DNA of 39,657 nucleotides from Ignavibacteria bacterium (GTDB lineage Bacteria > Bacteroidota > Ignavibacteria > Ch128b). The stretch's first letter is position 1; each line of letters starts with the position of its first letter. The DNA lies in NCBI GenBank assembly GCA_016873845.1, contig VGVX01000018.1:1-39657 (forward strand). Reading direction: 5' to 3'. Positions 10,083 through 28,732 of this stretch are shown piece after piece. Both the position numbers and the translations under genes were made by a program. The notes under the pieces were generated by a model, which ran no database searches, was not told where the DNA came from, and saw only the letters and a list, made by a program, of their open reading frames with translations.

Positions 10083-11360
10083 ATGATGCGTGGAATTTGT
10101 TTGGTATTTATTGCAGTCACAACATCAATAATCATCACTTCTTGTAAAAGCATAACAGAACCAGAAGTTGATTATAATTATTCCATACAAAAAGTCTGGT
10201 GGTCGGATATTATCGATAATGATAAAGATGGATTCGCAGTGAGCAAGATCTTGAATTTTAACGTCCGCTTAGAAGAAAACGTTACTCGCACTGTAGTAGC
10301 TCGAATTTATTATAAATTAACCGATGCACCAAACTATTCTTTCTATAACTTTACGGAGGAATATGAAATTGAAGGAATAAAATCACCTTCATCTATGCAA
10401 ATGATAATTGGTATCCCGAACAAAGAACTTATTTCGGGTTTATATGATTTTCAAATCGAACTTTATGAAAAAAGCAATAATCGAGTGAAAACTAAAGTAA
10501 CCATCGAGGATTCCATTGGTGCAGTATTGGCAAATCAAGCTTTTGAGGAATTGAAGGATGATCAAATTTATACTATTACACCATGGTGGCGAGATGCATA
10601 TGACCGTAACGGGAATGGTTATGCACGATATGCTACACTCGGATTAGATATCGATGTTGGAGGAAATTTAGAAAAAAAGTTGACAGCATATGTCTACTAT
10701 AAACAAAAAACTTCAGATAAGTTTAGGCTATACCTTACGAGTAAGGAATTCACAATCCGAGGAATGCAAAGACAAGATTCCATAAATTTACTTATCGGAG
10801 AGGAAGGTAAAGAATTAAGCAGAGGTGAATATGACTTTCGAGTTGAATTCATGGAAACCGCTTTTGATTATCCTGCCGCGGTAATCGACAACCGAACATC
10901 TGACATTCTTAACGACGTTAAATTCGAAACTCACGATGAGGACAGCTATTTCTACACCGTTGTAAAAAATAATTTAAATTGGATCAACCTGGTAGATAAT
11001 GATGCAGATGGGTATACAAGTTCACGGAAACTCATTTTCGACGTTGATGTAGATAAAAACGAGTACCGTTCCATACTTGCTAAAATATTTGTTAAACATC
11101 CTGACTCGACCAACTATAATTATTACGGCATTACAAATGTATTTCGTATTTATGGAAGTAATCCTTTCGATACAATTCAAATTCCAATTGGAACTGCTTC
11201 TTACAATTTAGACAGCGCCAAGTACAATTTTATTCTTACAGTTTATGAAGATGTACCCGATTCACTAAAAATCATTGAGGCAGAAGCCGGGGGTTATAAG
11301 GAAGGAGATGCATTGTACCAGCAATCATTTGAAACTGCATTACAGGATTCATTGAGATGA
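10083..11360 (+). CDS. Lipoprotein with three choice-of-anchor-H-like repeats
   Basis: A 425-residue lipoprotein: signal peptide and lipobox IITSC with C21. Three homologous domains of about 130 residues follow. Each starts with an aromatic then an acidic calcium-type loop (DIIDNDKDG at 42-50, DAYDRNGNG at 171-179, NLVDNDADG at 302-310), then a strand with alternating acids, a YYK/FVK strand, an I-x-G turn and a closing (E/K)YDF or KYNF strand. This resembles the choice-of-anchor H domain, normally seen singly. AAGGA stands eight bases before the ATG. Last gene of the operon. A surface or periplasmic binding role is likely; the ligand is unknown. Confidence 0.75.
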   Translation: MMRGICLVFIAVTTSIIITSCKSITEPEVDYNYSIQKVWWSDIIDNDKDGFAVSKILNFNVRLEENVTRTVVARIYYKLTDAPNYSFYNFTEEYEIEGIKSPSSMQMIIGIPNKELISGLYDFQIELYEKSNNRVKTKVTIEDSIGAVLANQAFEELKDDQIYTITPWWRDAYDRNGNGYARYATLGLDIDVGGNLEKKLTAYVYYKQKTSDKFRLYLTSKEFTIRGMQRQDSINLLIGEEGKELSRGEYDFRVEFMETAFDYPAAVIDNRTSDILNDVKFETHDEDSYFYTVVKNNLNWINLVDNDADGYTSSRKLIFDVDVDKNEYRSILAKIFVKHPDSTNYNYYGITNVFRIYGSNPFDTIQIPIGTASYNLDSAKYNFILTVYEDVPDSLKIIEAEAGGYKEGDALYQQSFETALQDSLR

Positions 11361-11532
11361 GATCGTGCTTTGAGATAAAAAGCATTATCTAATTGATTGT
11401 TTTTGTTATATCTGTAAATAAGAGACGGTGTACTCGAAGTCAGGGAGAAATTATTGATTTTTTGCGGTTAAATGTCCATATTTTTTACATATGTAATTGT
11501 TGTAATCCTCTTTAAAGAGAAGTATTCTTTTT

Positions 11533-11629
11533 CCGAAGGAATGCCTTCGGCAGAAGCTTGTCGTCCCGACAAGTCGGGATATGGATTTTTGCCTGCCCGC
11601 TAACCTTAAACTTACGAGGCAGGCGGGTT
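11533..11629. repeat. Cluster of three adjacent mini-palindromes
   Basis: In order: CCGAAGG-AATG-CCTTCGG (11533-11550, perfect), TCCCGAC-AA-GTCGGGA (11564-11579, perfect), and TGCCTGCCCGC...GAGGCAGGCGGGTT (11590-11629). The second recurs as the core of the terminator at 18559-18590, the third in the leader at 6571-6615. They are unrelated to each other in sequence yet sit within 100 bp. Confidence 0.8.
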
Positions 11630-11844: not shown

Positions 11845-12981
11845 TTATTTTTTCTTTATCGTAAATCTATCAATAACTTTTATTTCTGTTCCAATTTTTG
11901 TAAAGGAACCGTCTTCCGGAAAAATTCCGTATGTAACGGCATCAACTTTTTCATCATAGACTTCAAATAGAACATAGGTGAATGCACGATAGCCGACAAA
12001 ATCTCTTGATGCTTGTGAGTTTTCGTTTGGGCCATGGTAATAATTTAGCGTTTCATAATAAGGAATTGCTTCAATGTATGTCATCTCTTGACCATATCTT
12101 TTCTGCTCAGGATTATCACCATACTTTGGATTGAATTCGTATAAAGGTGCACCGCTACTACCGGTTGTTATTTGAAAAACTCCATCAACAGATTGCCTGC
12201 CATACATATGCTCGTGTCCATTGATAAATGCTGTTACTTTATATTCATTTAATAAACTCCAAAACTTGTTTCTTCTATCGAGATACCATTTGCGTGTTGA
12301 ATCTAACGGGGGAGAAAAGTTTCTGCCTAAGTTTGGGAGTCCATCTCTCAAATGTCCACCAATTGGAAAAGCAGGCTCGTGACTTATAACAAAAATTTGT
12401 TTAATGCCTCGTGATTTTGCATTTGATAGATCGTTCTCAAGCCAGTCGAGATGCTTGATGTAATGTCTGTCAGGTTTGTCGTCGGTTGTATCAGCTAAAT
12501 CGCCGTAATGCCACCGGTCGCTGGTCATAAAAACAAAATGTGAGTTTTCGTAGTCGAATGAATATGTCAAACCTTTTTCATCATCCGGTCCGTTCATGAA
12601 AACATCGGGAAAGAGTTTCCTGAAATTATCTTCATCGTCGCGGTGCTGAACTTCGTGATTGCCGACTGTCAGCCAAACTTTAGGCCAAACCATGTTCGGA
12701 TTATTATAGATAGGAGACATAACTTTTTTCCAGAATTGAAGCTGCATGTAAGTTAAATTCGGATCGAATCTATTTCCGGCGACCATATCTCCTGCAAACA
12801 CGATAAACTTAACATCTTTTTGATTCTCAACAATATGATTCACGATAGTCGATAACACCGCTTCGTTCACTCCGTTGTTGCTGCCGCGGCTGTCGGACAT
12901 TGCAATGAACTGAAACAGCTGAGCCGTGACAGAAGAAAAAGTTATCAACGAACAAAACAAGATCATATAAAATCTGTGCAT
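11845..12981 (-). CDS. Secreted calcineurin-like metallophosphoesterase
   Basis: A 378-residue exported phosphoesterase with a signal peptide (FCSLITFSSVTA). Binuclear-metal motifs run in order: MSDSRGS (DxR in place of the usual DxH), FAGDMVAG (GDxV), VGNHEVQ (GNHE), VISHEPAF, and INGHEHMYGR (GHxH). The layout resembles purple-acid-phosphatase-like members of the calcineurin superfamily; the substrate cannot be read from sequence. ATG at 12981 is preceded by AAGGA. No T9SS sorting domain is present, so it is probably periplasmic. It stands alone, convergent with the envelope operon. Confidence 0.85.
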   Translation of the reverse strand: MHRFYMILFCSLITFSSVTAQLFQFIAMSDSRGSNNGVNEAVLSTIVNHIVENQKDVKFIVFAGDMVAGNRFDPNLTYMQLQFWKKVMSPIYNNPNMVWPKVWLTVGNHEVQHRDDEDNFRKLFPDVFMNGPDDEKGLTYSFDYENSHFVFMTSDRWHYGDLADTTDDKPDRHYIKHLDWLENDLSNAKSRGIKQIFVISHEPAFPIGGHLRDGLPNLGRNFSPPLDSTRKWYLDRRNKFWSLLNEYKVTAFINGHEHMYGRQSVDGVFQITTGSSGAPLYEFNPKYGDNPEQKRYGQEMTYIEAIPYYETLNYYHGPNENSQASRDFVGYRAFTYVLFEVYDEKVDAVTYGIFPEDGSFTKIGTEIKVIDRFTIKKK

Positions 12982-13162
12982 TACATATCCTTAATTAGAT
13001 TATTACAAAGTGTGACAAAGTTAAGTCGATTTTTTGAATTATTGAAAAGTTTTTGAGTGATGATTCTTTTCTCTACATCCAAATCGATCCCCTAAATCTG
13101 AAATAATAATTTGATAACCTCAAAGAATTTTCATGAAGCAAATAAATGAGGTTGGCACAAGA

Positions 13163-13234
13163 GGTTCTCCCGATACACGATTTCCTCGAAATCGTACTCG
13201 AGAACCGTGAAATTTTTTTTAGGTTTTCGAGTGT
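13163..13234. repeat. Nested palindrome, GGTTCTC/GAGAACC family, copy 1
   Basis: Outer arms GGTTCTC...GAGAACC enclose inner arms CGATTTC/GAAATCG. After a 17-base spacer comes TTTTCGAGTGT. Copy 2 at 18453-18521 has the same outer arm, inner arm and trailing TTTTCGAGTGT, with only a few changes in the palindrome, so the unit is about 70 bp. Confidence 0.8.
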
Positions 13235-13260
13235 GGTTGACTAAAATGTACTTCAATTTA

Positions 13261-13302
13261 TCATTCCCGTGTAAATGCTCAGCATCCTTTTGACGGGAAT
13301 CT
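13261..13302. repeat. GTCATTC/GAATC family repeat
   Basis: TCATTCCCGT...ACGGGAATCT with an expanded interior that includes ATGCTCAGCAT, a further small palindrome. Same ends as the copies near arsC. Confidence 0.65.
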
Positions 13303-13322
13303 AAAACCAACGAAAATATTAT

Positions 13323-13369
13323 GGATTCCCACTCACCACTTGCGTGAGGACAGGTTTCGTGGGAATGAC
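13323..13369. repeat. GTCATTC/GAATC family repeat, inverted and expanded
   Basis: GGATTCCC...GGGAATGAC, opposite orientation to the copy at 13261. The interior (CTCACCACTTGCGTGAG, then ACAGG) holds an inner stem CTCAC/GTGAG, so it looks like a repeat with a second palindrome inside it. Confidence 0.65.
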
Positions 13370-13491
13370 TAATGAGAAAAAATTAATTTTTAGACAGCCA
13401 GGAAATAGATAATCATTGAATAGTTTTTCTAAATCGAATATGAGATCAATACTTCGTAAGCGAGATTATTTTTAGTATTTTTGCCCTCACT

Positions 13492-15633
13492 ATGCCGAAC
13501 ATATCGAAGTCACTCGCTTTATTATTTATTTTTCTAATGACTTTTTTCCTAACAGAAGGATTTGGTCAGAAAATAGTCACTGCAGTTGAAATTTTTACTC
13601 CGCCTTCAATTGATGGCATGCTAAACGATTCCGTCTGGAGTTTAGCTGTACCGAATTCAGAATTTTTACAGCAGGAACCAAAAGCAGGCGAAAATCCCAC
13701 ATTCAAAACTGAGATAAGAATTCTTTACGATAAAGAAAACCTCTACCTCGGAATTATGTGCTACGATCCTGAGCCGGATAAAATAGTTGCACGCGAATTG
13801 AAGCGCGACGGAAATCTGCGCGGCGATGATAACATCATGATGATATTCGATACTTTTAACGACGACCGGAATGCTTATTGGTTTGGTACAAACCCGCTCG
13901 GAATGAGAGACGATGCTATTCTTTATGGGTTTGATTATCGCAGCTTCAATGAAGAATGGCATGGAATATGGGACGTGAGTTCGGCAATTGTCGACAGCGG
14001 CTGGAGCACCGAATTAGTTTTTCCATTTTCAACTTTTAAATTTCACGATAAAGACGAACAAACTTGGGGATTTAATTTACTTAGACAGATCAGAAGATTG
14101 AATGAACAAGCGATTTGGTCTGCAGCAGGGAAAAATCTTGGATTATTTCGAATTGCTTTTGCTGGTGATCTAGTAGGAATAAAAAAAATTAAAAGGGGGG
14201 ATCCAATTTACATTAAGCCATTTTTAACAGGAGGGTTTCAACAAGGTGAATCGGTAAAGAAAAAAAATTTTGAGCCCGGTTTGGATATCAAGTATGGAAT
14301 TACACAGAACTTCTCCCTCGATTTGACTTTCAACACGGATTTTGCTCAAGTCGAATCTGACAGAGCAAGGATCAATCTCACTCAGTTTCCGCTATTTTTT
14401 CCTGAGAAGCGGGAATTCTTTTTAGAAAACGCGAACGTTTTCGATTACACTTTTGGAGCGGGCAATAATTTATTTTACAGCAGGCGGATCGGAATTAGTG
14501 ATGAAGCGCAAATCCCGATTATTGCAGGAGCAAGACTTGTTGGCAGAATCCAGAAGGTCGAGCTTGGTGTAATGAACATCCAAACCGAAAAACGTGGCGC
14601 TGAACCTACAACCAATTATGGTGTGGTTAGAATGAAATACGATCTATTCGATCAATCTTATGCCGGATTTATTTTCACTAATAAGATTTCGAAAAATAAA
14701 TTCAATCGTGTTTATGCTGGGGATTTTAATTTTACTTTTAGTGAAATATTCGGCGATCAGACTATGGCAATCGGTGGTGGAGTAATGAAGTCAGAGGATA
14801 CTGATGGGGGAAAAAATTCCTGGGGGAGCAAGTTCTTCATAAATTATCCAAATGATTTGATCAATTTTTTTACCAGCCATAGATATGCACAAAAAGATTT
14901 TAATCCTGGAATCGGATTTATGTACAGAACAGGCTTCCAATCTCTTGTTTTCAATTTGAAAGTCTCTCCAAGAATTAATTGGAATGAAGTTAAACGATTG
15001 AACTTCGAGCCGATTGAGTCGGATATTTATTGGAATGATAAGGGCGAGCTTTCGATTATTAGAGCAAGCTTTGTACCCATCGGTTTGTCAACTAATGCAG
15101 ATGATAATCTTGAATTTAAAATCAATAGAAGATTTGATTTTTTAGAGAGCGATTTCAATATCTTCGATACAACCGTGATCCCAATCGGGAAATACTGGTA
15201 CACGAGCTATGAAGTTGACCTGGAAACTTCTCGAAGCAGAAAAATCTACGGCGGAGTTGAATACAGTTTCGGAGATTATTTAACCGGAAAGAAAAAGTCT
15301 TTTTCACTGAATGTTTCCTCAATTTTGAGCAAGCATTTATCCATCTCGGCTGATTATGAAACAAATACGATTAAGCTGCGTGAAGGAATTTTCACAACTA
15401 ATGAGTTCGGAACTAGAATCCGTTACGATTTCACAACGATGATCTATTCTTCTATTTTTGCTCAGTGGAATAATGAAGAAAATGAGATTAACATCAATTA
15501 CCGTTTCAACTGGCAGCCAAAGATTGGGAGCGATTTCTATCTCGTTGTGAATCATATGCTGTCAACGGGAAGAAAATTCCGCACGAAAGATATTGCAATC
15601 CTTGCAAAGATAGTTTGGCTGTTTGTGATTTAG
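13492..15633 (+). CDS. CBM9-like / DUF5916 outer-membrane beta-barrel protein
   Basis: A 713-residue exported protein. The signal peptide (LALLFIFLMTFFLTEGFG) is followed by a CBM9-like domain: SIDGMLNDSVWSLA, then RILYDKENLYLGIMCYDPEP and a GDDNIMMIFDTFNDDRNAYWF block, about residues 30-220. The rest (about 230-713) matches the DUF5916 barrel pattern of many aromatic-rich strands, with FNTDFAQVESDRARINLT and LFFPEKREFFLENA as characteristic stretches. Such proteins are common in Bacteroidota/Ignavibacteria and often annotated as carbohydrate-binding; ligand unknown. No Shine-Dalgarno sequence is seen before the ATG. It ends at a hairpin terminator. Confidence 0.88.
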   Translation: MPNISKSLALLFIFLMTFFLTEGFGQKIVTAVEIFTPPSIDGMLNDSVWSLAVPNSEFLQQEPKAGENPTFKTEIRILYDKENLYLGIMCYDPEPDKIVARELKRDGNLRGDDNIMMIFDTFNDDRNAYWFGTNPLGMRDDAILYGFDYRSFNEEWHGIWDVSSAIVDSGWSTELVFPFSTFKFHDKDEQTWGFNLLRQIRRLNEQAIWSAAGKNLGLFRIAFAGDLVGIKKIKRGDPIYIKPFLTGGFQQGESVKKKNFEPGLDIKYGITQNFSLDLTFNTDFAQVESDRARINLTQFPLFFPEKREFFLENANVFDYTFGAGNNLFYSRRIGISDEAQIPIIAGARLVGRIQKVELGVMNIQTEKRGAEPTTNYGVVRMKYDLFDQSYAGFIFTNKISKNKFNRVYAGDFNFTFSEIFGDQTMAIGGGVMKSEDTDGGKNSWGSKFFINYPNDLINFFTSHRYAQKDFNPGIGFMYRTGFQSLVFNLKVSPRINWNEVKRLNFEPIESDIYWNDKGELSIIRASFVPIGLSTNADDNLEFKINRRFDFLESDFNIFDTTVIPIGKYWYTSYEVDLETSRSRKIYGGVEYSFGDYLTGKKKSFSLNVSSILSKHLSISADYETNTIKLREGIFTTNEFGTRIRYDFTTMIYSSIFAQWNNEENEININYRFNWQPKIGSDFYLVVNHMLSTGRKFRTKDIAILAKIVWLFVI

Positions 15634-15643
15634 AGGGCTGCAG

Positions 15644-15679
15644 AAAGATGCCATCCCGGTTTGTTGAGATGGCATCTTT
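15644..15679. terminator. Bidirectional hairpin terminator
   Basis: Perfect 12-bp stem AAAGATGCCATC/GATGGCATCTTT with a 12-base loop and TTTTCT after it on the plus strand. It lies between convergent stops (15633 and 15692), 10 bases after the plus gene. The same stem (AAGATGCCAT/ATGGCATCTT) is reused at 18413-18446 around a different core. Confidence 0.85.
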
Positions 15680-15691
15680 TCTAATGAAAAA

Positions 15692-16972
15692 TTATTTCAG
15701 CAGTATCATCTTCTTCAGCTCGGAAAATTTTCCGGCTGTCAGTTTATAAAAATACACTCCACTTGATAGGTTATTTGCAGCAGAAAATTTAACTAAATGT
15801 TTTCCTGCTTGTTTAAACTCATTCACTAAGGTTTGAACTTCTCTTCCTAGAACATCATAAACTTTTAGAGTTACAAAGCTCGGCTTTTGTAATTCATAGC
15901 TTATAACAGTAGATGGATTAAACGGATTCGGATAGTTTTGATACAGAGAATATGAGTGAATTGAGAACGATTCATCGTCAACTGATGTAACTCCAGTAAC
16001 TCCATTTTCATTATATATAGCAAGACCATGTGAAAACGTCCCTATCCACTTATTATTAAATCTATCAATCTTCATTGATATTATGCTCCAAGGGTTAGTA
16101 ACATCCGGAAATGTCGTGAAAGTAGTTCCATCAAATTTAACTAAACCACGATCCGTTCCAATCCATAAGTTATTATCTTTGTCCACAGTAATAACATTTA
16201 TAAAATTATTTGGCATTGGGGAGTTAGAAGTATTGTATGAAATAAATGTACTGTCGTTTACCCATTTCAGTAATCCTTGATCTGCAGTGCCTAACCATCT
16301 AACTCCGTTCAGATCTTTTGCGAAAGAAAAAAATCTTTGTGATGGCATCGTGGTATTAGTCGTATCGAATATTTTCCAAGTATCATTATATAAAAGTACG
16401 AGCCCTTTATAAGAACAAATCCATAATGAATCCCCCTCCTTCTTCACTTGTCCCCCATATCCAGTTGGCATAGGTGAATTGATTGGACTAAAAAGTGTAA
16501 AATTAGAATTATCAAACTTTATCAAGCCATAACGTGTTGGGGAGAACGACCATTTATTACCGTTATTATCAATTTCCATTTGTGGGAATTTTGTATATCC
16601 CATAGCTCCAATTCCTTCATACTTATATACATTCCAATTAATTCCATCAAATTTATAAAATCGGTAGCCATGGTCTATCCAATTACAATTTGAACTATCC
16701 ACTTTTACCGCAGTAAATTGCCATGGGAGTGTGTCTCTTACAGAGATGTTCCAGTGAGTCCAGTTTATTCCATCATATTTAAGTAAACCAGAGTGAAAAC
16801 CATATAAAGAGTAACCGATCCAAAAATTGTCATAGTTATCAATTTCTATTGAGTTAACTATGTCAAATTCTAAATCCGAATTAACTCTATTAATAAACAA
16901 CCATTGATTTGTTTGCGCGAGATTTATGTTTGTTAAAAATAATAGCAACAAAATTATAACTTTTAATTTCAT
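15692..16972 (-). CDS. T9SS cargo, two-component-propeller repeats
   Basis: A 426-residue secreted protein. Signal peptide (VIILLLLFLTNINLA), then about seven propeller units of the Reg_prop type, each with an NxWIG / GLxKYDG pattern (DNLWIGTDRGLVKFDGTTF is the clearest). The last 85 residues are a T9SS type A sorting domain: LYQNYPNPFNPSTVISYEL, VYDVLGREVQTLV and a final GKFSELKKMILLK. It should cross the outer membrane by T9SS and be released or surface-anchored. AAGGAG precedes the ATG. First of six cargo genes in a row on this strand; the fold repeats in the 726-residue gene at 22228. Confidence 0.88.
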   Translation of the reverse strand: MKLKVIILLLLFLTNINLAQTNQWLFINRVNSDLEFDIVNSIEIDNYDNFWIGYSLYGFHSGLLKYDGINWTHWNISVRDTLPWQFTAVKVDSSNCNWIDHGYRFYKFDGINWNVYKYEGIGAMGYTKFPQMEIDNNGNKWSFSPTRYGLIKFDNSNFTLFSPINSPMPTGYGGQVKKEGDSLWICSYKGLVLLYNDTWKIFDTTNTTMPSQRFFSFAKDLNGVRWLGTADQGLLKWVNDSTFISYNTSNSPMPNNFINVITVDKDNNLWIGTDRGLVKFDGTTFTTFPDVTNPWSIISMKIDRFNNKWIGTFSHGLAIYNENGVTGVTSVDDESFSIHSYSLYQNYPNPFNPSTVISYELQKPSFVTLKVYDVLGREVQTLVNEFKQAGKHLVKFSAANNLSSGVYFYKLTAGKFSELKKMILLK

Positions 16973-17014
16973 TGTATATCTCCTTTTGTATTTAGTATAA
17001 ACTTAAATAAAGAA

Positions 17015-17039
17015 GTAAATAGATATTTTCTCTATTTAC
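17015..17039 (-). terminator. AT-rich hairpin overlapping a stop codon
   Basis: Perfect 8-bp stem GTAAATAG/CTATTTAC with a 9-base loop, overlapping the stop of the 394-residue cargo gene and followed on the minus strand by TTCTTTATTT. The stem is weak (AT-rich), so termination is possible rather than sure. Confidence 0.45.
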
Positions 17040-18220
17040 CTAATAACTATCATCTTTTTAATATCATAAAAATCACCAACATTAATTTTATAAAAGTAAA
17101 CTCCACTTGTTAGATTACTTGCTTCAAATTCAATTTGATATTTACCTTGTAATTTGAACTCATTCACTAAAGTTTTTATCTTTCTTCCCAAAAAATCATA
17201 TAGATTTATTGTCACAAAGCCTTCTATAGGCAAATAGTAACTGATGAATGTTGTTGGATTACCCGAATGGGTGGCTTCGCCAAATGGATTGGGATAATTT
17301 TGATTTAAAGTAAAAACTACTGGTGAACCTCCGACAGCTTTTTTCTGTAATTCTGGATCGATCAAAATAGATTCAATATTTGAATACGCTGCAGATAAAA
17401 TTGTACCGTTCAATCCACGTACTTTATAACTTATTTGTTGTGTTTGATTACCCCCTGGCCAAGTTATCTCATTATCAATAAAAGTATTTGTAAGCGAGGT
17501 GCATCTATCTACCCAATCACCATCCCCTGATTTTCTTTTAATTGGAAAGCCCGTGTTAAATTCATCTGATGACCATGTAAGTATTGGATGCTGTGTTCCG
17601 GGTTCGAAAGATATCTCTAAGTTATATGGAGAGGGAGGTTCGAAATAAATTGTCAGAGGGGAATTATTATAGTTCTTAATTTCCCACACGTTTAGTGTAT
17701 CCCCTGATGAATATTCTGTCCAATCGGATGCGTTAGGACTATAAAACAACCTATTTGGTGTCCCAAATACAAATTTTATAAAAACATCTGGATTTTGATC
17801 TCCATAATGATTATCACGAGTATCATAATAAAAATACACATACGGACTTTTACTATACGGACTTTTACTAGTGGTCACCTTATAGAGTCCAAATGCTATT
17901 TCCGGTGTGTTTTCACCTGGTGGTATTGAATGTGAAAACCAACAATCCCACTTAGAAGGATCACTTGTATCGCTAATACCTGTCGTAATTAAACTACTAG
18001 ATATTAAATTAGAATTACTGGTTATTGGGAAATAGCTTGTACTCTGTTTTTCCCAGGTGGTCTTTTGACTCGTTATTGTATAAGTTATCTGCTCATTTAC
18101 GCCTACTCCAAAAGTTCCAACAAAAAGAGCTCCTTCGGTAACTAGCTCTTGTGAGAAAGAAATCTTGTACAAAGAAAAAATTAGAATTGCAATTAAAAAG
18201 TGTTTAATACCGCCTCCCAA
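17036..18220 (-). CDS. T9SS cargo with an interrupted sorting motif
   Basis: A 394-residue secreted protein without a recognised N-terminal domain; residues 205-290 look like a fibronectin-III-type sandwich (PILTWSSDEFNTG). The C-terminal 90 residues are a T9SS type A sorting domain (FTLNQNYPNPF, LYDFLGRKIKTLV, DIKKMIVIR), but GEATHSG is inserted after NYPNPF, where the family reads NPFNPTT. The 21 bases encoding it are a palindromic repeat (17261-17281). The start is unclear: TTG at 18220 has no binding site, while GGGAGG lies four bases before an ATT at 18208 that begins the signal peptide (IKHFLIAILIFSLYKISFSQ). Confidence 0.82.
   Translation of the reverse strand: MGGGIKHFLIAILIFSLYKISFSQELVTEGALFVGTFGVGVNEQITYTITSQKTTWEKQSTSYFPITSNSNLISSSLITTGISDTSDPSKWDCWFSHSIPPGENTPEIAFGLYKVTTSKSPYSKSPYVYFYYDTRDNHYGDQNPDVFIKFVFGTPNRLFYSPNASDWTEYSSGDTLNVWEIKNYNNSPLTIYFEPPSPYNLEISFEPGTQHPILTWSSDEFNTGFPIKRKSGDGDWVDRCTSLTNTFIDNEITWPGGNQTQQISYKVRGLNGTILSAAYSNIESILIDPELQKKAVGGSPVVFTLNQNYPNPFGEATHSGNPTTFISYYLPIEGFVTINLYDFLGRKIKTLVNEFKLQGKYQIEFEASNLTSGVYFYKINVGDFYDIKKMIVIR
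17261..17281. repeat. 21-bp palindromic insertion inside a sorting-domain codon run
   Basis: Two adjoining hairpins, ACCC-GAAT-GGGT and GGC-TTC-GCC. Deleting exactly these 21 bases joins GGATT to AAATGG and makes the minus strand read QNYPNPFNPTT, the family consensus. The insertion therefore adds seven codons without disturbing the frame. Confidence 0.85.
17841..17870. repeat. Perfect 15-bp tandem duplication in a coding region
   Basis: TACGGACTTTTACTA occurs twice in direct succession and encodes SKSPYSKSPY in the 394-residue cargo protein. A recent slippage or duplication event; the frame is kept. Confidence 0.8.
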
Positions 18221-18412
18221 AATAAATTGTTAAAATATTTATTGTCAACCAAGAGCAGTATTTTTTTCGATTCAAGATTTGGCTCTGTAAATCTCAGCAG
18301 CAGTTTTTATTAATCTCTACTACAAGTAATTGTAATACATTCGGCAAATAAAGTCAAGTACAAAAACTATTCAATCTCACTGACGAATTGAAAGATTCCA
18401 CTCAATAAAAAA

Positions 18413-18446
18413 AAGATGCCATACGTCAGCTGACGGATGGCATCTT
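18413..18446 (-). terminator. Hairpin terminator with CGTCAGCTGACG core
   Basis: Outer stem AAGATGCCAT/ATGGCATCTT around the perfect palindrome CGTCAGCTGACG. On the minus strand the stem is followed by TTTTTTTTATTG, a strong U tract, so it terminates leftward transcription. It is the second terminator after the 1020-residue gene; the outer stem equals that at 15644 and the core equals that at 35822. Confidence 0.75.
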
Positions 18447-18452
18447 AATTTA

Positions 18453-18521
18453 GTTCTCTCGATACACGATTTCTTCGAAATCGTACTCGAGAACCATTGA
18501 ATGTAGTTGTTTTTCGAGTGT
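18453..18521. repeat. Nested palindrome, GGTTCTC/GAGAACC family, copy 2
   Basis: GTTCTC...GAGAACC with inner CGATTTC/GAAATCG and a trailing TTTTCGAGTGT, the same plan as 13163-13234. It lies between two terminators in a 390-base gene-free spacer (18221-18609), where nothing else is coded. Confidence 0.8.
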
Positions 18522-18558
18522 CCACTAACTGGACTTGTGATTTAAATGGATATTAAAA

Positions 18559-18590
18559 AGATTCCATCCCGACTTGTCGGGATGGAATCT
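18559..18590 (-). terminator. Strong hairpin terminator after the BNR cargo gene
   Basis: Perfect 15-bp stem AGATTCCATCCCGAC/GTCGGGATGGAATCT with a two-base loop, followed on the minus strand by CTTTTTAATA. It begins 19 bases after the stop of the 1020-residue gene. The core TCCCGAC/GTCGGGA is the free-standing palindrome at 11564-11579. Confidence 0.88.
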
Positions 18591-18609
18591 ATATTTTATC
18601 TATACAAAA

Positions 18610-21600
18610 TTACTTCAGCAGTATCATCTTCTTCAGCTCAGAAAAATTTCCGGCTTCTATCTTATATAAGTAAACACCGGATGAAACTTGTCTTCCGGAA
18701 TTATCTTTTCCATTCCATTCGATAGTATATGTTCCAGGAGCTTGATGATTATCCACCAGCTTTGCAACTTCACTTCCATTTAAATCATAAATAATTACAG
18801 AAACCAATTGTTCATTCGGCAAGCTGTATTTTATTCTCGTAACGGGGTTAAATGGATTTGGATAATTCTGTGAAAGATCAAAGTGTTTCGGGACTCTCGT
18901 TTCTATATCAACCACAGATGTAAGCGTTTGAATTTTTGCACGCATGAAATATGTCTCATTCCAGGATGACCAAGACACGCCATCGAAATCCCAAGCCCTG
19001 CCGTTATCAATCGGATCGAAGCCATACATCGGCTTGTTTGTTCCATCATAAAAAAGTCCAACAAAGAAATCGTCACTCACATTTATATTGTAAGAAGAGA
19101 GATTTATTTCATCCCAACCGGGAGGAACAGCAACTCGAGTTGAGAGCGTCGTAAGATTCGATCCAGGCGCCGAACCTGATTTCCCTTTTATAAATGGCTG
19201 GTACGAACCTGTACCGGCATTTATCCCAGTAAAGTAAATACTCATTTGAGTTACTTTAGCAGGTGTGATAGTTGGAGTCATTCGGTTTGCAGAACCTGCA
19301 CCAGGTGTATTCCAATAATAACCGCTTGATGGAATTCCATCGTCATAATTCAAAGTTACTTCGGTTGGAGTAGTCCCGCCTGAGAGTGGAGCTTTGAACA
19401 TGCTTCTTCCATGAGTTGCTGCGAACAAATATTTGTCGCTTGACCGATAATCGAGATCTGCAATGCTGACATTAGCTAAACCGCCGTTATCAGTTACCCA
19501 AGTGCCGCCATCGTTGATTGATGAAAAAATTCCAAGGTCTGTTCCGACGATTATCTGGCTTGCATTATCTGGATTTAAAGCAACACAATTTACAGGCAAA
19601 TTCGGCAGACCGGAAGAAATATTTGTCCACGTCGATCCGTAGTTGGACGTTTTATAAATTTTGCTTGATGAAGTGTAACCCGAATAAGTTAGATAAGCAG
19701 CCCCAGGATTGGTTGAAGAGATTTCGATATCTGTTACATACAAAGTTGGTAAACTGCTTGAGACGACTGACCAGGAACCGCCATTATTAGTTGTAACCTG
19801 AACTCTGCCGTTGCTGCATCCGGCATAAATTACATTTGAATTTCCTTTAGCGATTGCAATAGCAGAAATCGTTGCGCCAGAAGAACCAGAACCATCGCCG
19901 GTCAAATCGCTGCTAATGGCAGACCAATTATTTGCGCCATCTGTTGTTTTATAAAGCTTGTAAGTTCCAGCAATTAAAGATTGTGAGTTATTAGGATCCA
20001 TAATAAACGGAGCGATGAATTGGCAGCGCTCGGTCGTTCCATCCCAATATCCTGATCCGACAGGAATTCCGCTCATCTTCTTTGTCCATGAACTGCCATT
20101 GTTTGTTGATTTGAAAAATGCAAGATATACGTATTCAGCGTAAAGTGTCGAAGGAGTATTGAAATCAACTTCAGTTGCACCGCCGTCACCACTTAGGATT
20201 TCTGTCCAAGTTAGTCCTGAACTTGTTTTAAGCGTGCCATTATCTTGCGTCCCGCCGTAAAAAACATCTGAGGTCGGATGGACCGCACCATAGTAAAATT
20301 GAGTTACTTCAAGTCCGTTGTTTAGTGCAGTCCAAGCCGTTCCGCTATTTACGGATTTATAAATTCCTCCGTCAGTTCCAACGAACATTGTATTTGCGTT
20401 AGATGGATGGAAAACAATCGCATGATGATCTGCATGTACATAGGCATAGGAAGGATGAGTATACCAATTTGTAATTTGCGACCATGATGTACCGCCATTT
20501 GTAGTTTTAAACATATCCACTCCACCAGCGAAAACTATGTTTGGATCGGTTGGATGAACAGATACAATGTTATTATACCAAGCTTGTGAGCCGGTATAAT
20601 TATTGGCAGTCAGCGATGGACCGGGGACTGTCACAGCTGAAAAAGTATTTCCACCATCAGTTGATTTCTGGAAATGTGAAACACCGCTCGTGCTTAAGTT
20701 TAAAAAAGCAGCATATACGATTTGGTTATTTGATGGAGATGTAGCTAATTCTATTCTTCCAGTTCCGGTTACTGAATGAATTGCACTGAATGAACTTCCC
20801 CCATCATTGCTTTTATAAATCGCTGATTGATTGAACTGTCCATAACTTGCGAAGATAGTTGTCGGAGAAGTATTTGAAATTTCAATATCAATACAGTGTG
20901 CAGATGCACCGCTTAATCCGCCGCTTACAAGGTTCCAATTCGTTCCGCCATTAACAGTGTAGTAAAGTCCAGTTCGAGTAGCAGCATAGAGTCTGCCAGT
21001 TGTTGCATCAAACTGTAAATCGTTAACATAGTAGAAACTGCTGTTCTTTGTTGATGATAATTGAGTCCACGCTGTACCGCCATCGGTAGTTTTAAAAATT
21101 CCTTCGCCCCGGATTGCATCGGCATTGAAATATCCTTCTCCGGTACCGGCATAGATTATATTCGAATTCGCCGGATCCATTGCGAGAGCACAAACAGCGA
21201 GATTTTCCATGTCATCTTTTAATGCCGACCAGCTCGTTCCGCCATTCGTAGTTTTCCAGACGCCTCCACTTACTGCACCAACGTACATAATATTTGTATT
21301 CGATGGATTAATTAGAATTGAACGAAGTCTTCCTCCTATATTATTTGGTCCGACTTGCGTCCAAGATAATGCAGCAGCTTTAGTACTCAAAGAGGGGGAA
21401 TTGAATTTCTTAATATGCTCTAATGCACCACTTCGCCAATTATCCGGAATATAACCGATTGGAAAAGCCCGCTGATCATAATAAAATTTCATAGCTTCCA
21501 TTGGTTTGTCGTAAGCGGCTTTATTTTCTTTTTTAGATTTTATTTTATGAGCGAGCATGTCTTTAATTGTAAATTCATTTTTTGAATTTTCACTCGAGGT

Positions 21601-21672
21601 CTGAAAGATCAGGGATAAACTTGTAATTGCAGTTAGAAAAAGAAGTGATAAATGAGGCAGGAACTTTTTCAT
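18610..21672 (-). CDS. T9SS cargo, BNR/Asp-box (sortilin-like) beta-propeller
   Basis: A 1020-residue secreted protein. After the signal peptide (LSLLFLTAITSLSLIFQT) and a linker, residues 105-770 hold many Asp-box repeats of the form S-x-D-G-G-x-x-W or T-x-N-G-G-T-x-W (for example VWKTTNGGTSW, IFKTTDGGTAW, IYKSNDGGSSF), typical of VPS10/sialidase-like propellers of two or more rings. A beta-sandwich segment follows (about 790-920). The last 85 residues are a T9SS type A sorting domain (SQNYPNPFNPVTRIKYSL, VIIYDLNGSEV, ELKKMILLK). AGGAG precedes the ATG. No enzyme motif is seen, so binding or adhesion is as likely as catalysis. It follows a small lipoprotein gene by 16 bases and ends at a strong terminator. 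Confidence 0.9.
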   Translation of the reverse strand: MKKFLPHLSLLFLTAITSLSLIFQTSSENSKNEFTIKDMLAHKIKSKKENKAAYDKPMEAMKFYYDQRAFPIGYIPDNWRSGALEHIKKFNSPSLSTKAAALSWTQVGPNNIGGRLRSILINPSNTNIMYVGAVSGGVWKTTNGGTSWSALKDDMENLAVCALAMDPANSNIIYAGTGEGYFNADAIRGEGIFKTTDGGTAWTQLSSTKNSSFYYVNDLQFDATTGRLYAATRTGLYYTVNGGTNWNLVSGGLSGASAHCIDIEISNTSPTTIFASYGQFNQSAIYKSNDGGSSFSAIHSVTGTGRIELATSPSNNQIVYAAFLNLSTSGVSHFQKSTDGGNTFSAVTVPGPSLTANNYTGSQAWYNNIVSVHPTDPNIVFAGGVDMFKTTNGGTSWSQITNWYTHPSYAYVHADHHAIVFHPSNANTMFVGTDGGIYKSVNSGTAWTALNNGLEVTQFYYGAVHPTSDVFYGGTQDNGTLKTSSGLTWTEILSGDGGATEVDFNTPSTLYAEYVYLAFFKSTNNGSSWTKKMSGIPVGSGYWDGTTERCQFIAPFIMDPNNSQSLIAGTYKLYKTTDGANNWSAISSDLTGDGSGSSGATISAIAIAKGNSNVIYAGCSNGRVQVTTNNGGSWSVVSSSLPTLYVTDIEISSTNPGAAYLTYSGYTSSSKIYKTSNYGSTWTNISSGLPNLPVNCVALNPDNASQIIVGTDLGIFSSINDGGTWVTDNGGLANVSIADLDYRSSDKYLFAATHGRSMFKAPLSGGTTPTEVTLNYDDGIPSSGYYWNTPGAGSANRMTPTITPAKVTQMSIYFTGINAGTGSYQPFIKGKSGSAPGSNLTTLSTRVAVPPGWDEINLSSYNINVSDDFFVGLFYDGTNKPMYGFDPIDNGRAWDFDGVSWSSWNETYFMRAKIQTLTSVVDIETRVPKHFDLSQNYPNPFNPVTRIKYSLPNEQLVSVIIYDLNGSEVAKLVDNHQAPGTYTIEWNGKDNSGRQVSSGVYLYKIEAGNFSELKKMILLK

Positions 21673-21688
21673 TTTTTTTCTCCTAATT

Positions 21689-22117
21689 TTATTGTTGCAT
21701 GTCCATTATCAACCAACCCATTTTTAGTGTTAGTTTTAGGATTAAATTAACAGTATCTCCTTCGCGTTTGTTCGATAGCGATTTCAACTTTTGGTTTCTT
21801 TGATCTGCAGAATTTATTTTTCCTCTTTCATCCAAATAGAAATTTGGGGAAACCATGATTTCATCTCCGGCAGCAGCCATACTCGGCAGCGAACCAATAT
21901 CCTCGCAAGTTATAAGACGCAGCTTAAGTGAATAATCCTCATCGTTCTTTTTATAAATGCTGAGGATTTTTACCTGCACAAGTGAACGATTGTCTTGTAT
22001 TGTTGTCGGAGATTTTACTTCACCTTGATCAGTTTGAGTTTGATGCTCTTTTTTAGAACAACTGCTTAGAGCAAGAATAATAAAAAAAAGCACGACAGTT
22101 GTCGGTATTTTTACCAT
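21689..22117 (-). CDS. Small lipoprotein, function unknown
   Basis: A 142-residue lipoprotein with signal peptide and lipobox ILALSSC (C20). The mature part is about 120 residues, mixed charged, with a strand-rich region (VQVKILSIYKKNDEDYSLKLRLI); no family recognised. The frame opens at 22129, but GAGG lies six bases before the ATG at 22117, which also starts the signal peptide directly. It sits 16 bases upstream of the 1020-residue cargo gene, so the two are probably co-transcribed. Confidence 0.75.
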   Translation of the reverse strand: MVKIPTTVVLFFIILALSSCSKKEHQTQTDQGEVKSPTTIQDNRSLVQVKILSIYKKNDEDYSLKLRLITCEDIGSLPSMAAAGDEIMVSPNFYLDERGKINSADQRNQKLKSLSNKREGDTVNLILKLTLKMGWLIMDMQQ

Positions 22118-22227
22118 AAGGGCCCTCATTTTTTTGTTTCAAGTTAACAAATTAATTATAAGATGCAAGGATGAGATGCAGTTAAATCTCAGGCATGCTG
22201 CAAATGTTTTAAAGGATTAACTATTTT

Positions 22228-24408
22228 TCACTTCACTACAACCATTTTCTTAGTCTCAGTGTAATTACCGGCTTTGAGCTGATAGAAATAGATCCCAGTG
22301 GATAATTGAGAATTGAGAATTGATAATTGAGAATTATAAATTCCTGGGTCATTAATTTCATCAACAAGCGTTGCAATTTCTCTCCCGAGCACGTCATAGA
22401 CTTTCAAAGATACATGTTCTCTTCTCAATACTGAATACTCAATGCTAGTTACTCCATTGAATGGATTAGGATAATTCTGCGATAGAGAGAATCTCTCTGG
22501 AACGTTTGCGGGTTGATAATCCTTAACGTCAAGTATCACTCCACCTTCACGGTAAATAGATAATCCGGCATTTGTCCCGATAATTTTATGATTCGCTCCG
22601 TCAATCTCAATTGATGTTATGGAGTTGCTCGGAAGCTCGGAGTTAGATACATTGAACACCTGCCAGTTCGTTCCATCGTATTTTACCAAACCTGCATTCT
22701 CTGTTCCAATCCATAAGTTTCCAATTGTATCGACTTTTATTACTCTTATCCAATTGCTTGGGAGCCCGGAGTTCGATGTGTTGTAAACAGTCCAATTAGT
22801 CCCATCGTATTTTACCAATCCATAACGCCAAGTGCCAATCCATTTATTATTTAGACTGTCTATTGCCAATGAGATTATCCAGTTTTCCGGTAAACCGGAA
22901 GTCGATGTATTGTAAACACCCCAGCTTGCTTCATCGGTTATAACCAAGCCATTCTCCGTTCCAATCCATTTATAGTTGAATTTATCTATCAGAATTGAGC
23001 TGATGTATCTGCCCGGAAGACCAGAATTATATCTATTGTAAATAGTCCAATTGATTCCGTTAAATTTAGCTACACCATTATCGGTTCCTATCCATTTGTT
23101 CCCGTATGAATCGATGTTAACGCAAAGTACGTTATTGCTTGGGATGGGTGAGTTCGAAGTATTGAAAGTATCCCATTTGGCACCATTAAAGTGAAGCAAT
23201 CCGTTGAACTGCGTTCCGACCCAGATTTTGTTAGCAGAGTCTGTTTTAAGAGTTTGTATGTAAGTTCCGGGAATTTCACCCCGCCAGCTTGTTGTGTTTT
23301 TATCTGATTTATGAAATACAATTCCGCTTCCGTAAGTTCCGATTAAGATGTTACCGGATTTATCGTATGCAACAGCTTTAACATAATCGTTTTGGATGCC
23401 GGTGTTGTTGTTATCGAAAATAAACCAATCAGCGCAATCGTATTTAACAACTCTATTATCATTAGTCCCCAGAAAAACATCTGAGCCGTCAGATAGTATT
23501 ATATTGATCCATGAATAAGGTAATCCAGAGTTCATTTCGTCAAGTTGGAGATAATTGGTGGTGTCATTGAAAATTATTACAAATCTATGAGACGGAAATA
23601 GAGCGTCTCCATGAAAACCTATCCAAATTCGACCAGCACTGTCTTCAGTAATTGTTGTAAATCTATGTGAATCATTCTTAAAATAATGAATCCATCTGCT
23701 TCCGTTAAAAATAGCAATTCCAAGATATCCACCAATCCAAATATTATCATGTCTATCAATATAAATGTCTAATATTGTTTCAGGAATACGTGAGGAAGTT
23801 CTGTTAAATGTTATCCAGCTTGTATCATTAAATATTGCTAATCCGCCGTTCCACCCAGTTCCGATGTACTTCTTATTAAATCTATCAATAGTAATTGCGG
23901 TTACTTTTATTTCTGGAAGTCCAGAATTCCCCGTCCAATATCTTGTCCAGTTTGTGCCATCAAATTTAATTAATCCTTTTTCCTCAGTACCGATCCATAT
24001 ATTTCCAATAGAATCAAATGCAACAGCATTTATTATGTTTTCCATAATACCTGAATTCGCGGTGTTATAGATAGTCCATTCGATTCCATCGTATTTTGCT
24101 AGCCCATAGCCGTTGGTCAAAAACCATTTGTTATCGTTTTTATCTATCAGAAGTTTTTTAATCGTAGACTTTGGTATTCCTGGAATTTGGATTTCGATAT
24201 TTGTCCAATTAAAATTGTCGTATGTTACAACATCACCATTTCCCATTAAAAACCATTTTACTTTTTTCTTGTCTATCGCAATCGATAGAATTTTTGAGTT
24301 GGTAATCCCAGTTTTATTTTTATTATAAGTACGCCATTCTAAAGATTGTGCCACAAGTGATGTGGGTAAAAGAAAAATAATTATTATTAAGTTTAATATT
24401 TTATACAT
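22228..24408 (-). CDS. T9SS cargo, long two-component-propeller repeat protein
   Basis: A 726-residue secreted protein made of about fourteen Reg_prop units of roughly 45 residues (NNKWIGTWRYGLVKYDGTNW, then YNTSNSGLPSNWI is a typical pair), enough for two seven-bladed propellers. The signal peptide reads ILNLIIIIFLLPTSLVA. The C-terminus is a T9SS type A sorting domain (SQNYPNPFNGVTSIEY, VYDVLGREIATLV, TETKKMVVVK), enlarged by NSQLSILNSQLS, which is encoded by heptamer repeats. The frame opens at 24441, but the ATG at 24408, preceded by AGGTG, starts at the signal peptide and is chosen. Same fold as the 15692 gene and the sensor part of the regulator at 32783. Confidence 0.88.
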   Translation of the reverse strand: MYKILNLIIIIFLLPTSLVAQSLEWRTYNKNKTGITNSKILSIAIDKKKVKWFLMGNGDVVTYDNFNWTNIEIQIPGIPKSTIKKLLIDKNDNKWFLTNGYGLAKYDGIEWTIYNTANSGIMENIINAVAFDSIGNIWIGTEEKGLIKFDGTNWTRYWTGNSGLPEIKVTAITIDRFNKKYIGTGWNGGLAIFNDTSWITFNRTSSRIPETILDIYIDRHDNIWIGGYLGIAIFNGSRWIHYFKNDSHRFTTITEDSAGRIWIGFHGDALFPSHRFVIIFNDTTNYLQLDEMNSGLPYSWINIILSDGSDVFLGTNDNRVVKYDCADWFIFDNNNTGIQNDYVKAVAYDKSGNILIGTYGSGIVFHKSDKNTTSWRGEIPGTYIQTLKTDSANKIWVGTQFNGLLHFNGAKWDTFNTSNSPIPSNNVLCVNIDSYGNKWIGTDNGVAKFNGINWTIYNRYNSGLPGRYISSILIDKFNYKWIGTENGLVITDEASWGVYNTSTSGLPENWIISLAIDSLNNKWIGTWRYGLVKYDGTNWTVYNTSNSGLPSNWIRVIKVDTIGNLWIGTENAGLVKYDGTNWQVFNVSNSELPSNSITSIEIDGANHKIIGTNAGLSIYREGGVILDVKDYQPANVPERFSLSQNYPNPFNGVTSIEYSVLRREHVSLKVYDVLGREIATLVDEINDPGIYNSQLSILNSQLSTGIYFYQLKAGNYTETKKMVVVK
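22302..22336. repeat. Heptamer tandem array in a sorting domain
   Basis: Five 7-base units in a row: ATAATTG, AGAATTG, AGAATTG, ATAATTG, AGAATTA. They encode the run NSQLSILNSQLS in the sorting domain of the propeller protein, a stretch absent from the other sorting domains in the window. Confidence 0.85.
22427..22447. repeat. Short heptamer array in the same sorting domain
   Basis: Three 7-base units, AATACTG, AATACTC, AATGCTA. On the minus strand they encode SIEYSV, just after the QNYPNPFNG motif. The unit type AGTATT(G/C) is shared with the array at 28162-28196. Confidence 0.6.
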
Positions 24409-24432
24409 ACTTTTTGCACCTAACAGATAAGT

Positions 24433-24467
24433 GAGATGCAAGCTGAATAATGATCAGCTTGCATCTC
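24433..24467 (-). terminator. Perfect 14-bp hairpin between cargo genes
   Basis: GAGATGCAAGCTGA/TCAGCTTGCATCTC with a 7-base loop, 12 bases after the stop of the 575-residue gene and 24 bases before the start of the next. No U tract follows on the minus strand, so it may be an intercistronic stabiliser or attenuator instead of a full terminator. Confidence 0.6.
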
Positions 24468-24479
24468 AGTTTAACAAAA

Positions 24480-26207
24480 TTATTTAATCAACAAAAACTT
24501 CCTGACAGAATAAAAATTCCCAGCCCTTAACTCATAAAAATATATACCGGACTGCAATTCAAAATCTTCGGCATTGAAGTCAATTTCATATTCGCCAGGT
24601 TCTTTATGTTCATTTACTATAGTTCCAATAATGTTTCCAAGCAAATCATAGACTTTTAGTGTTGTAAGTACGGCATTAAATTGATTTACTGGAATACTGA
24701 ACCTAATTTTTGTTGATGGATTAAATGGATTAGGATAATTTTGTTCAAGGGTAAATTGAGCTGGATAAATTCTCCCTACAGCGATTTTATTCTCACCTGT
24801 ACCATAGCTGATACTAACTGTTGATGAATATTCTGAATGATGACTTGTATAATCCCTTGCTCTGATTCTATATTCAACTTTACAAGGACCATAACCTGCC
24901 GAACCTATTGATTCATCTGTAAAATCAGATTTGGAATAATCCCGCGATGCGAAATAATACCAAGGACCAAAATTTCCCGTCCCCAAAGAATCAATGCGTC
25001 TATCAATTTTATAGGCAGTGTTATTGTCCGCTCTGACTACATCTGGTTCTGAATTTTTTGTCCAGGTTAATTTTGGATGTCCAGCCCCATCGACAGTAAT
25101 TGAGAAATTTTGCGGAACTAATGGATTGGCGTCGTATTGGCAATACCGCATGTAGGAAGAACCATTATCTTTCCAGATCAAATAAATATCATTTGAAACA
25201 GAAGAACTGCTAAGAGAATTAAAATTGCTTCCGCTTGCTACAGAAACCACTGAGCTCCATGCACCGTCATAAGTTCTATGTTTTAATCCAGAGGCAGAAT
25301 AAATAATATTTAATTTATTATTTACAGTACGACTGACAGTGCATAATACATTGTCAACATTTTCAGCAACAGTGAGATAGTTCGTCCCATATGAAGTAGC
25401 GTCAGCTATTTTCTTTTTCTGCCTAATACGAACAAGTTCGCCATCATCGTATATATAAAATATATACAGACTGTCATCACTGGTAGAATAAATCATTGAA
25501 CCTGCAGTGTAACTTGAAATAGTTTCACAAACCGACCAGATACCTCCGCCACCAGGGTAATAGAATTTATCCCGTGTGCGGGTTACATTAGTGCTTAACT
25601 GCCAGGTAATATGCGCTCTTCTAGCATCGTTGTAATAAGTTGCTCGAATTGAAGGATATTTTGCGTCTGTATTATCACAATCAGATACATCTCCTTCATC
25701 AACAGGTGTGGTATCTTGAAATCGGGAATAATATACTCTGTACCTACCATTATTATATCTTGAATCTGCTACATGCAGATAATCAAAATCGCTATCGTAA
25801 AACGCATCAAGTCCTTCGCAGGTAGATGTAGAAATGTCGTATGAAGAAGAAAGGCTCCAACTACCTCCCGAATTTGTTGATTTATAATACTTTATATAAT
25901 TGTCTTTTCTATAGACCACACAAACCACATCTCCTCTTCCAGTAATATTAGCCCATTTTCCGCCTCCGGAACTTTCAAACGTATATTCTGTTTCGCTGAT
26001 ATAAGAACCGCTCGAGTTATATCGATAATATTTTACAGTTGAATTATTGGAAACAACTATATGATTTCCATCCTTATTTGTATAAACTTCTGCTTTATCG
26101 AAATTCGTTAAATCTAATCCAGTCGTAACCACACTATTCCAACCCTCACTTTGTCCATATAATTCAAAAGAAAAAATAAACATCAATGTTGTCAATAAAT
26201 GTTTCAT
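24480..26207 (-). CDS. T9SS cargo, sialidase-like propeller plus Fn3
   Basis: A 575-residue secreted protein. Signal peptide (LLTTLMFIFSFELYG), then about 360 residues of strand repeats with SxxxG patterns (YYKSTNSGGSWSLSS), resembling a sialidase/BNR propeller. A fibronectin-III-like domain follows (VPQNFSITVDGAGHPKLTW, about 380-480). The last 85 residues are a T9SS type A sorting domain (LEQNYPNPFNPSTKIRFSI, VYDLLGNIIGTIV, final SVRKFLLIK). AAGGA precedes the ATG at 26207, overlapping the end region of the upstream cargo gene 12 bases away, so the two are co-transcribed. Catalytic sialidase residues are not evident. Confidence 0.85.
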   Translation of the reverse strand: MKHLLTTLMFIFSFELYGQSEGWNSVVTTGLDLTNFDKAEVYTNKDGNHIVVSNNSTVKYYRYNSSGSYISETEYTFESSGGGKWANITGRGDVVCVVYRKDNYIKYYKSTNSGGSWSLSSSYDISTSTCEGLDAFYDSDFDYLHVADSRYNNGRYRVYYSRFQDTTPVDEGDVSDCDNTDAKYPSIRATYYNDARRAHITWQLSTNVTRTRDKFYYPGGGGIWSVCETISSYTAGSMIYSTSDDSLYIFYIYDDGELVRIRQKKKIADATSYGTNYLTVAENVDNVLCTVSRTVNNKLNIIYSASGLKHRTYDGAWSSVVSVASGSNFNSLSSSSVSNDIYLIWKDNGSSYMRYCQYDANPLVPQNFSITVDGAGHPKLTWTKNSEPDVVRADNNTAYKIDRRIDSLGTGNFGPWYYFASRDYSKSDFTDESIGSAGYGPCKVEYRIRARDYTSHHSEYSSTVSISYGTGENKIAVGRIYPAQFTLEQNYPNPFNPSTKIRFSIPVNQFNAVLTTLKVYDLLGNIIGTIVNEHKEPGEYEIDFNAEDFELQSGIYFYELRAGNFYSVRKFLLIK

Positions 26208-26219
26208 TTTTAATTCCTT

Positions 26220-27965: not shown

Positions 27966-27971
27966 TTTCAT

Positions 27972-28732
27972 CCTGTTTATTAAAGGAAAAGAAATAAAGT
28001 TCTATTTAAGTCGGATTTCTTCATGAAAACCCAGTCGCATAAAACTTCAGTTCATAAAATATCTGTTTGCGGTAAGTAACTAAGGGCTTTAAGTTCTTCG
28101 TTAAGCAGTGGAAAAGTGGTTGGCATAGCAGCAAGTAAATCAGCATTTTGCCCCCCCCCAATAGTATTTAGTACTGAGTACTTAGTATTGAGTAAGAAGA
28201 AGGGAGAAAATATTTGGTTGAGATAAACGGGTGAATTATTATTCTTTCTGTTAAGCCCAGTAAAAGAACTGTATGTAAAACAGCTGCGCATAGCATTTAT
28301 CCCGCTGGTGCAATGTTAAGATAAAAACAGTGTGTTGTCAAGAGTTCTCCTTCATGGTTAATTTCGACATGGAGTTTTAGGAACAAAAAAAACTTTTGGG
28401 GAATATCATGAATCGATTAAAATAATACTTATCAACCTGCTTGCCGCCAGCAGGATTGGCGCAGAATAATATATCGTCCCTCTGGGACTTGTAACTTTGT
28501 GCGTTCATATACTAAAATTATATTGCTCCTATGGAGCTAAAAATTCCGTAGGGATAAAATATTTATAGAAATAGAGTAAGAAGTGAGAAACAGAGTCCCG
28601 TATAGGCGAAATAGAGAATCGTGCTTTGTGTTCTATATATGATTTGACACCTTTCATGCTTACGTGAAATATTACCTTTTTAGATTCGCATCATTAGTAT
28701 TAAATTAAAATAAAAACTCATAAGAATTTTTG
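27972..28732. other. Repeat-rich divergent spacer without convincing genes
   Basis: About 760 bases. It holds a run of nine C at 28151-28159, a heptamer array (28162-28196) and three short hairpins: CCTGC...GCAGG (28436-28454), GTCCC-TCT-GGGAC (28476-28488) and GCTCC-TAT-GGAGC (28525-28537). A 79-codon minus frame at 28052-28291 reads through the repeats and is not called. Promoters for both flanking genes must be here. Confidence 0.6.
28162..28196. repeat. Heptamer tandem array, intergenic
   Basis: Five 7-base units: TAGTATT, TAGTACT, GAGTACT, TAGTATT, GAGTAAG. The consensus (T/G)AGTA(T/C)T resembles the unit read on the minus strand at 22427-22447. Confidence 0.8.

Follow-up and report, generated by a model that had tools for sequence, protein, structure and literature searches.

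The window, by which we mean the whole stretch of 39,657 nucleotides that was analysed from an Ignavibacteria bacterium (contig VGVX01000018.1; genome G000), encodes T9SS cargo proteins with a type A C-terminal sorting domain (CTD), and the sorting motif of one of them contains a short palindromic insert (Table 1). The insert reads ACCCGAATGGGTGGCTTCGCC on the forward strand and GGCGAAGCCACCCATTCGGGT on the coding strand and is translated as GEATHSG, which gives the context PNPF-GEATHSG-NPTT. A sequence-only reading of this DNA had placed a 21-bp palindrome of two abutting hairpins exactly within the sorting motif, and both points are borne out by our analysis; the hairpins are real but weak, with a minimum free energy of -4.3 kcal/mol as single-stranded DNA (z -1.8). 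Removal of the 21 bp does give NPFNPTT, as had been stated, and its description as the consensus of the other cargo proteins is only roughly right, since the remaining CTDs of the window have NPFNPST, NPFNPVT and NPFNGVT.

The host domain is a T9SS type A sorting domain (TIGR04183/PF18962) whose motif is here longer by seven residues. In a profile search, the insert-bearing CTD scored above the curated cut-offs of both families (TIGR04183, 32 bits with a cut-off of 23; PF18962, 32.4 with a cut-off of 27). AlphaFold models it with a pLDDT of 88 as an Ig-like beta sandwich of six long strands with an intact core, in which the seven inserted residues form a flexible loop of low confidence that precedes the first long strand (20-27). 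Such a loop within a well-predicted sandwich agrees with tolerance of the insert. An orthologous empty site, or a pair of strains with and without the insert, was sought and not found: the same-genus genome G001 lacks the gene, and the homologue in G005 (47% identity) is differently fused, runs into a propeller and ends NPFNSKT. Compared with window positions 15692-18220, the G005 locus (L307) has the cargo N-terminus fused to the propeller and CTD, and the window has two adjacent genes with a CTD each, a difference that reflects either gene fission or fusion with gain of a sorting domain.

Table 1. Positions of the insert, its host gene and related features in the window; hairpins are separated by a slash.
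Feature	Position	Strand	Details
21-bp double-mini-hairpin insert	17261..17281	-	Coding strand GGC-GAA-GCC/ACCC-ATTC-GGGT = GEATHSG, between NPF and NP
T of the Phe codon	17282..17282	-	Also opens the 22-bp form, as part of the T-A pair that closes hairpin 1; by comparison with dispersed copies
T9SS type A CTD containing the insert	17045..17296	-	PF18962/TIGR04183
Cargo gene, 394 aa, TTG start as listed	17036..18220	-	N-terminal part without known family
Uninserted neighbouring CTD	15704..15934	-	NPFNPST; comparison domain
Uninserted neighbouring CTD	18622..18864	-	NPFNPVT
Uninserted neighbouring CTD	22237..22473	-	NPFNGVT
Uninserted neighbouring CTD	24492..24737	-	NPFNPST
Second double-mini-hairpin	11531..11552	.	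Same architecture, TTCC-GAA-GGAA/TGCC-TTC-GGCA; z -4.5

The second double-mini-hairpin of the window, TTCCGAAGGAA followed by TGCCTTCGGCA, lies between convergent ORFs at 10083-11360 and 11845-12981. A further palindrome, TCCCGACAAGTCGGGA, follows it at 11564-11579, and the two are possibly a cluster of such units.

Taken alone, the palindrome in the sorting motif means little. The window contains 10 abutting double hairpins and Markov sequences contain 4-14, so there is no excess by which a reader of this one window could have told an element from chance; in 440 kb of the same genome the count (10 vs 3-8) is hardly above chance. Given the peptide GEATHSG and local codon usage, a double hairpin with stems of 3 and 4 bp has a probability of 9e-5, and zero matches to the 21-mer within three mismatches are expected by chance in the window. 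The sequence-only reading had taken this single copy as direct evidence of movement, which it is not; the evidence is recurrence. The sequence at 17261-17281 is a copy of a dispersed double-mini-hairpin element and not a codon accident, because it recurs in its own genome, in a relative of the same genus and across the class, with stems that have changed on both sides.

Pattern searches and inspection of sequence stretches in its own genome, first for units with up to three mismatches to the seed and then for NPF-x7-NP codons, gave five places: the window; C51; C81 (GEATHSG); C24 (GEAIHSG); and C72 (GEAAYSG). C51 repeats window positions 11939-28344 at 99.89% identity over 16.4 kb (18 differences), through either strain variation within the bin or a recent duplication. 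As a near-identical copy of the same stretch it is not independent, which leaves four distinct copies; the 21-mer is thus found again in three other genes of this genome and, as an identical 20-mer, in G001. All four lie at the same NPF^NP codon boundary, each in a different gene, and in this genome the element is nearly confined to T9SS motifs. The inserts are 71-95% identical to one another and have more codons in common than codon usage predicts (p=0.0012). At NPF^N, contig C17 (L201, + strand, from about 12927) carries 42 nt of inserted GC-rich DNA, SASSSDKSGSTSGG, that includes two imperfect palindromes; here another element occupies the hot spot.

The same-genus genome (G001; record JAHJVF01) has an identical 20-mer in a non-coding stretch (L036/L082). 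Its copies are mostly extragenic, with one within a T9SS motif as GKATPSG, and their stems covary: they include TGGC-GAA-GCCA/TCCC-TTA-GGGA, CGGC-GAA-GCCG/TCCC-TTT-GGGA, TGGC-GAA-GCCA/TTCC-TTC-GGAA and TGGC-GAA-GCCA/TCAC-TTT-GTGA, among others. At four further loci of this genome (L056, L064, L065, L068) there is a longer unit, GCGAATGC-GGCAAAGCC-GTCCATTCGGAC, in several repeats and often followed by a TCCC..GGGA hairpin; this longer unit may be built up from the same modules.

The dispersed unit is 22 bp long and consists of TGGCGAAGCCA followed by TCCCTTCGGGA, and the in-frame T9SS copies amount to a net 21 bp. Its architecture, [T N3 GAA N3' A][T M3 TTC M3' A], keeps its form on reverse complementation, so that either strand reads a GAA hairpin and then a TTC hairpin; copies use two stem registers. 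When the 22-bp consensus was searched for with up to three mismatches in 391 genomes of the class, with the reversed pattern as a control, it was found in 111 of them, at about 490 places (484 when summed over the genomes of the Y1 comparison below) vs 5 for the reversed control. These copies lie mostly outside genes across many genomes. Among 64 distinct copies, 93% of stem cells are paired and all 8 pairs have changed on both sides; the covariation score of 0.233 compares with 0.076 for shuffled alignments (reached in 0/500) and at most 0.075 with slid partners. In the phylum sample, matches outside the class were mainly in one family (f43) of a sister class, and a contig scan for GGCGAAGCCAYCCATTCNGG returned chiefly chance matches in Bradyrhizobium and other GC-rich DNA, along with the genus relative. 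Two viral contigs (IMG/VR; L350, L351) have an exact match to the relaxed 22-mer, which could reflect spread by phage.

Across 72 distinct copy contexts, the unit tends to be preceded by TT and followed by RAA, a target preference of TT^RAA, and six copies vs 0.8 expected lie midway between the arms of inverted repeats whose stems are at least 6 bp long. Seven of the 72, a set whose query was chosen from T9SS-like copies, are at NPF^NP; each of them belongs to the TGGC subfamily, and they share one orientation. This number has a binomial probability of about 1e-7 under uniform choice among TTTAA sites, and it includes the seed and two related genes of G279, so that about five are independent without the seed. 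Three of the seven are in frame, namely the window copy, GDAIPSG in G390 and PNPYGEAIPSGNPTT in G078. The other four, in two different genes of G168 and in the two related genes of G279, are 22 bp long and shift the frame into TAA; the in-frame copies have one T fewer. The flanks of the G168 and G279 insertions rejoin cleanly, as PNPFNPST, PNPFNPYT, PNPFNPKT and PNPFNPTT. Near the insertion these four genes look decayed and may already have been dead, so that they tell of the element's target site but not of damage to a working gene. The sequence-only reading had called the insertion a multiple of three, which holds for the in-frame T9SS copies; the element itself is 22 bp and often shifts the frame, and the multiple of three is therefore a mark of the survivors and not a property of the element. 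Its more general proposal that micro-palindromes enter genes gains support from the recurrence, from the similarity of inserts whose flanks are unlike and from the clean 22-bp insertions in two other genomes.

Copies were also noted at RNA genes. Three lie, by reading, in tRNA T-loops (TTC^GA; L174, L329, L336). In G001 as well as in G000 (L045, about 1460-1530; L051, C15:3553), the anticodon region of a decayed tRNA-Ser upstream of tRNA-Ser(CGA) contains a double hairpin, and since both members of the genus have it, this insertion predates their split.

These observations are very probably best explained by a dispersed element of about 22 bp that integrates at TT^RAA, has entered NPF^NP repeatedly and is tolerated there as net +21 bp copies. 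Such an element would use targets of the TT^RAA type, often in the middle of inverted repeats, and in genomes rich in T9SS cargo genes it would insert again and again at the NPF^NP codons (TTT-AAT) in a single orientation. Each insertion would add 22 bp and break the frame. Copies with a net gain of 21 bp would lengthen a surface loop of the sorting domain by seven residues (G-x-A-x-x-S-G), would be tolerated there with secretion presumably intact, and may later drift into an ordinary loop.

Transposition would take place in trans, probably through an enzyme of the HUH/Y1 type acting on single-stranded hairpins, and we offer a single-strand enzyme of this kind as our preferred but doubtful guess for the mover. 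A more specific proposal, compatible with the reading above since it concerns the mover, is that the dispersed units are REP/REPIN-like and moved by REP-associated (Y1/HUH) transposases. Counts of Y1_Tnp and of the element are correlated over 382 genomes (Spearman 0.37, p 4e-14, uncorrected for relatedness), every genome with at least five copies has Y1, and the flanks are able to fold around the element. However, the 20 Y1 loci of element-rich genomes have 2 flanking units vs 2.4 expected, and within 6 nt of the copies the GTAG tag occurs in 0/72 and CGTC in 1/72, which leaves the proposal tentative.

A single ancient insertion could instead have spread among cargo genes by copying or conversion of sorting domains. 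CTDs are numerous, with 139 matches in G000, and they shuffle between genes, as the different arrangement of the G005 homologue indicates; the two G279 copies resemble a duplicated gene. Nevertheless, the flanks of the four distinct G000 copies are no more similar than those of random CTD pairs (60-67% vs 63% identity on the 5' side; 36-51% vs 48% on the 3' side). Copying of whole domains does not explain flanks at background level, which separate insertions, or conversion of about 20 bp, would. The units of other genomes, moreover, have different stems that are still paired, and we consider this explanation unlikely.

It could also be argued that sorting motifs of this length (NPFG-x6-NP) are a native variant, with the seven residues retained for reasons of the protein and the palindrome a by-product of complementary Gly/Ala and Thr/Gly codons. 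In its favour, NPFG-[ENKRS]-[AT]-x-[HN]-S-x-NP is found in at least eight other genomes of families f10 and f22, within true CTDs and in unrelated and often hairpin-free codons (G320, G354, G244, G336, G339 and others have such domains), and five genomes with the variant (G320, G354, G236, G336 and G244) have no dispersed near-consensus copy. More distant relatives do carry the seven residues with unrelated codons, which goes part of the way to the outcome that the sequence-only reading had named as refuting it. Some relatives still have double hairpins at the motif, such as GGC-AGT-GCC/ATCC-ATCC-GGAT in G236. A scan of the phylum sample with NPFG-x6-NP codons returned only G000, in a sample that missed the class members having the variant. 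Against a native variant stand the low probability of the double hairpin given the peptide, the near-identical insert DNA in diverged domains, the extragenic occurrence of the unit in many genomes with compensated stems, and the frame-shifting 22-bp copies at the same site, which cannot be retained for their peptide. We regard it as quite improbable, though conceivable for the decayed motifs, and read the NPFG-x6-NP domains with unrelated codons as old or converged copies, in a series that runs from fresh insertion to protein loop; some copies may have turned into ordinary protein loops. That the units are immobile terminator or protein-binding hairpins conserved by function, as the many extragenic copies and those in loops of larger inverted repeats might suggest, is very unlikely, since copies in CTD motifs, apparent tRNA T-loops and a decayed tRNA-Ser are not terminators, the flanks are unrelated between copies and the window copies have no match in Rfam.

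The reading of a dispersed element that repeatedly enters NPF^NP can be carried further. We find it possible, at somewhat below even chances, that a transposase-less 22-bp micro-element, built from two covarying mini-hairpins, is actively mobile throughout the class, picks hairpin centres and NPF^NP in one orientation, and created an NPFG-x6-NP subtype of the sorting motif that is inherited as protein after the hairpins have decayed. A frame-shifting insertion, an in-frame insertion and a decayed protein loop at one codon boundary would form a natural series, and the movement of micro-palindromes and the conversion of insertions to functional protein thereby become testable questions.

A literature search found no paper connecting T9SS sorting motifs with palindromic insertions, and several known systems invite comparison. 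REPs and REPINs are palindromes of 20-40 bp, arranged as hairpin pairs and associated with RAYTs (PMC3116915, PMC3733652). The element is like them in its small palindromic hairpin pairs and its Y1-transposase-rich genomes, and unlike them in having no GTAG, almost never CGTC, unflanked Y1 genes and units that abut without a spacer. In the mitochondria of fungi and algae, double-hairpin elements and GC clusters are also described as small mobile units in which two hairpins abut (PMC4478555, PMC5910586); these are organellar, and the likeness is one of description.

Rickettsia palindromic elements (RPEs) are long stem-loops of 105-146 bp (about 150 bp; PMC2229807), dispersed between genes, within RNA genes and in frame within conserved protein genes (Ogata 2000, reviewed in PMC2229807 and PMC10969869). 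The element described here is likewise a dispersed palindrome found inside and between genes. The resemblance to RPEs suggested by the sequence-only reading thus extends to behaviour, but not to sequence, size or structure: the unit is 21-22 bp long and made of two 11-nt mini-hairpins with 4-bp stems instead of one long stem-loop, stays in frame only with the loss of a base, and enters one motif again and again. In a lineage that is free-living and has a T9SS, it is a counterpart to the protein-coding palindromes of Rickettsia at about 1/5 to 1/7 their size. In Nostoc, the small dispersed repeats (SDRs; Elhai 2008, cited in PMC3116915) are reportedly hairpins of about 21-27 nt with many dispersed copies; the 22-nt unit is similar in size and hairpin nature, in a comparison made by description only and with another phylum. 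By analogy, the element would work like RPEs and cyanobacterial SDRs, a likeness that does not imply belonging to either.
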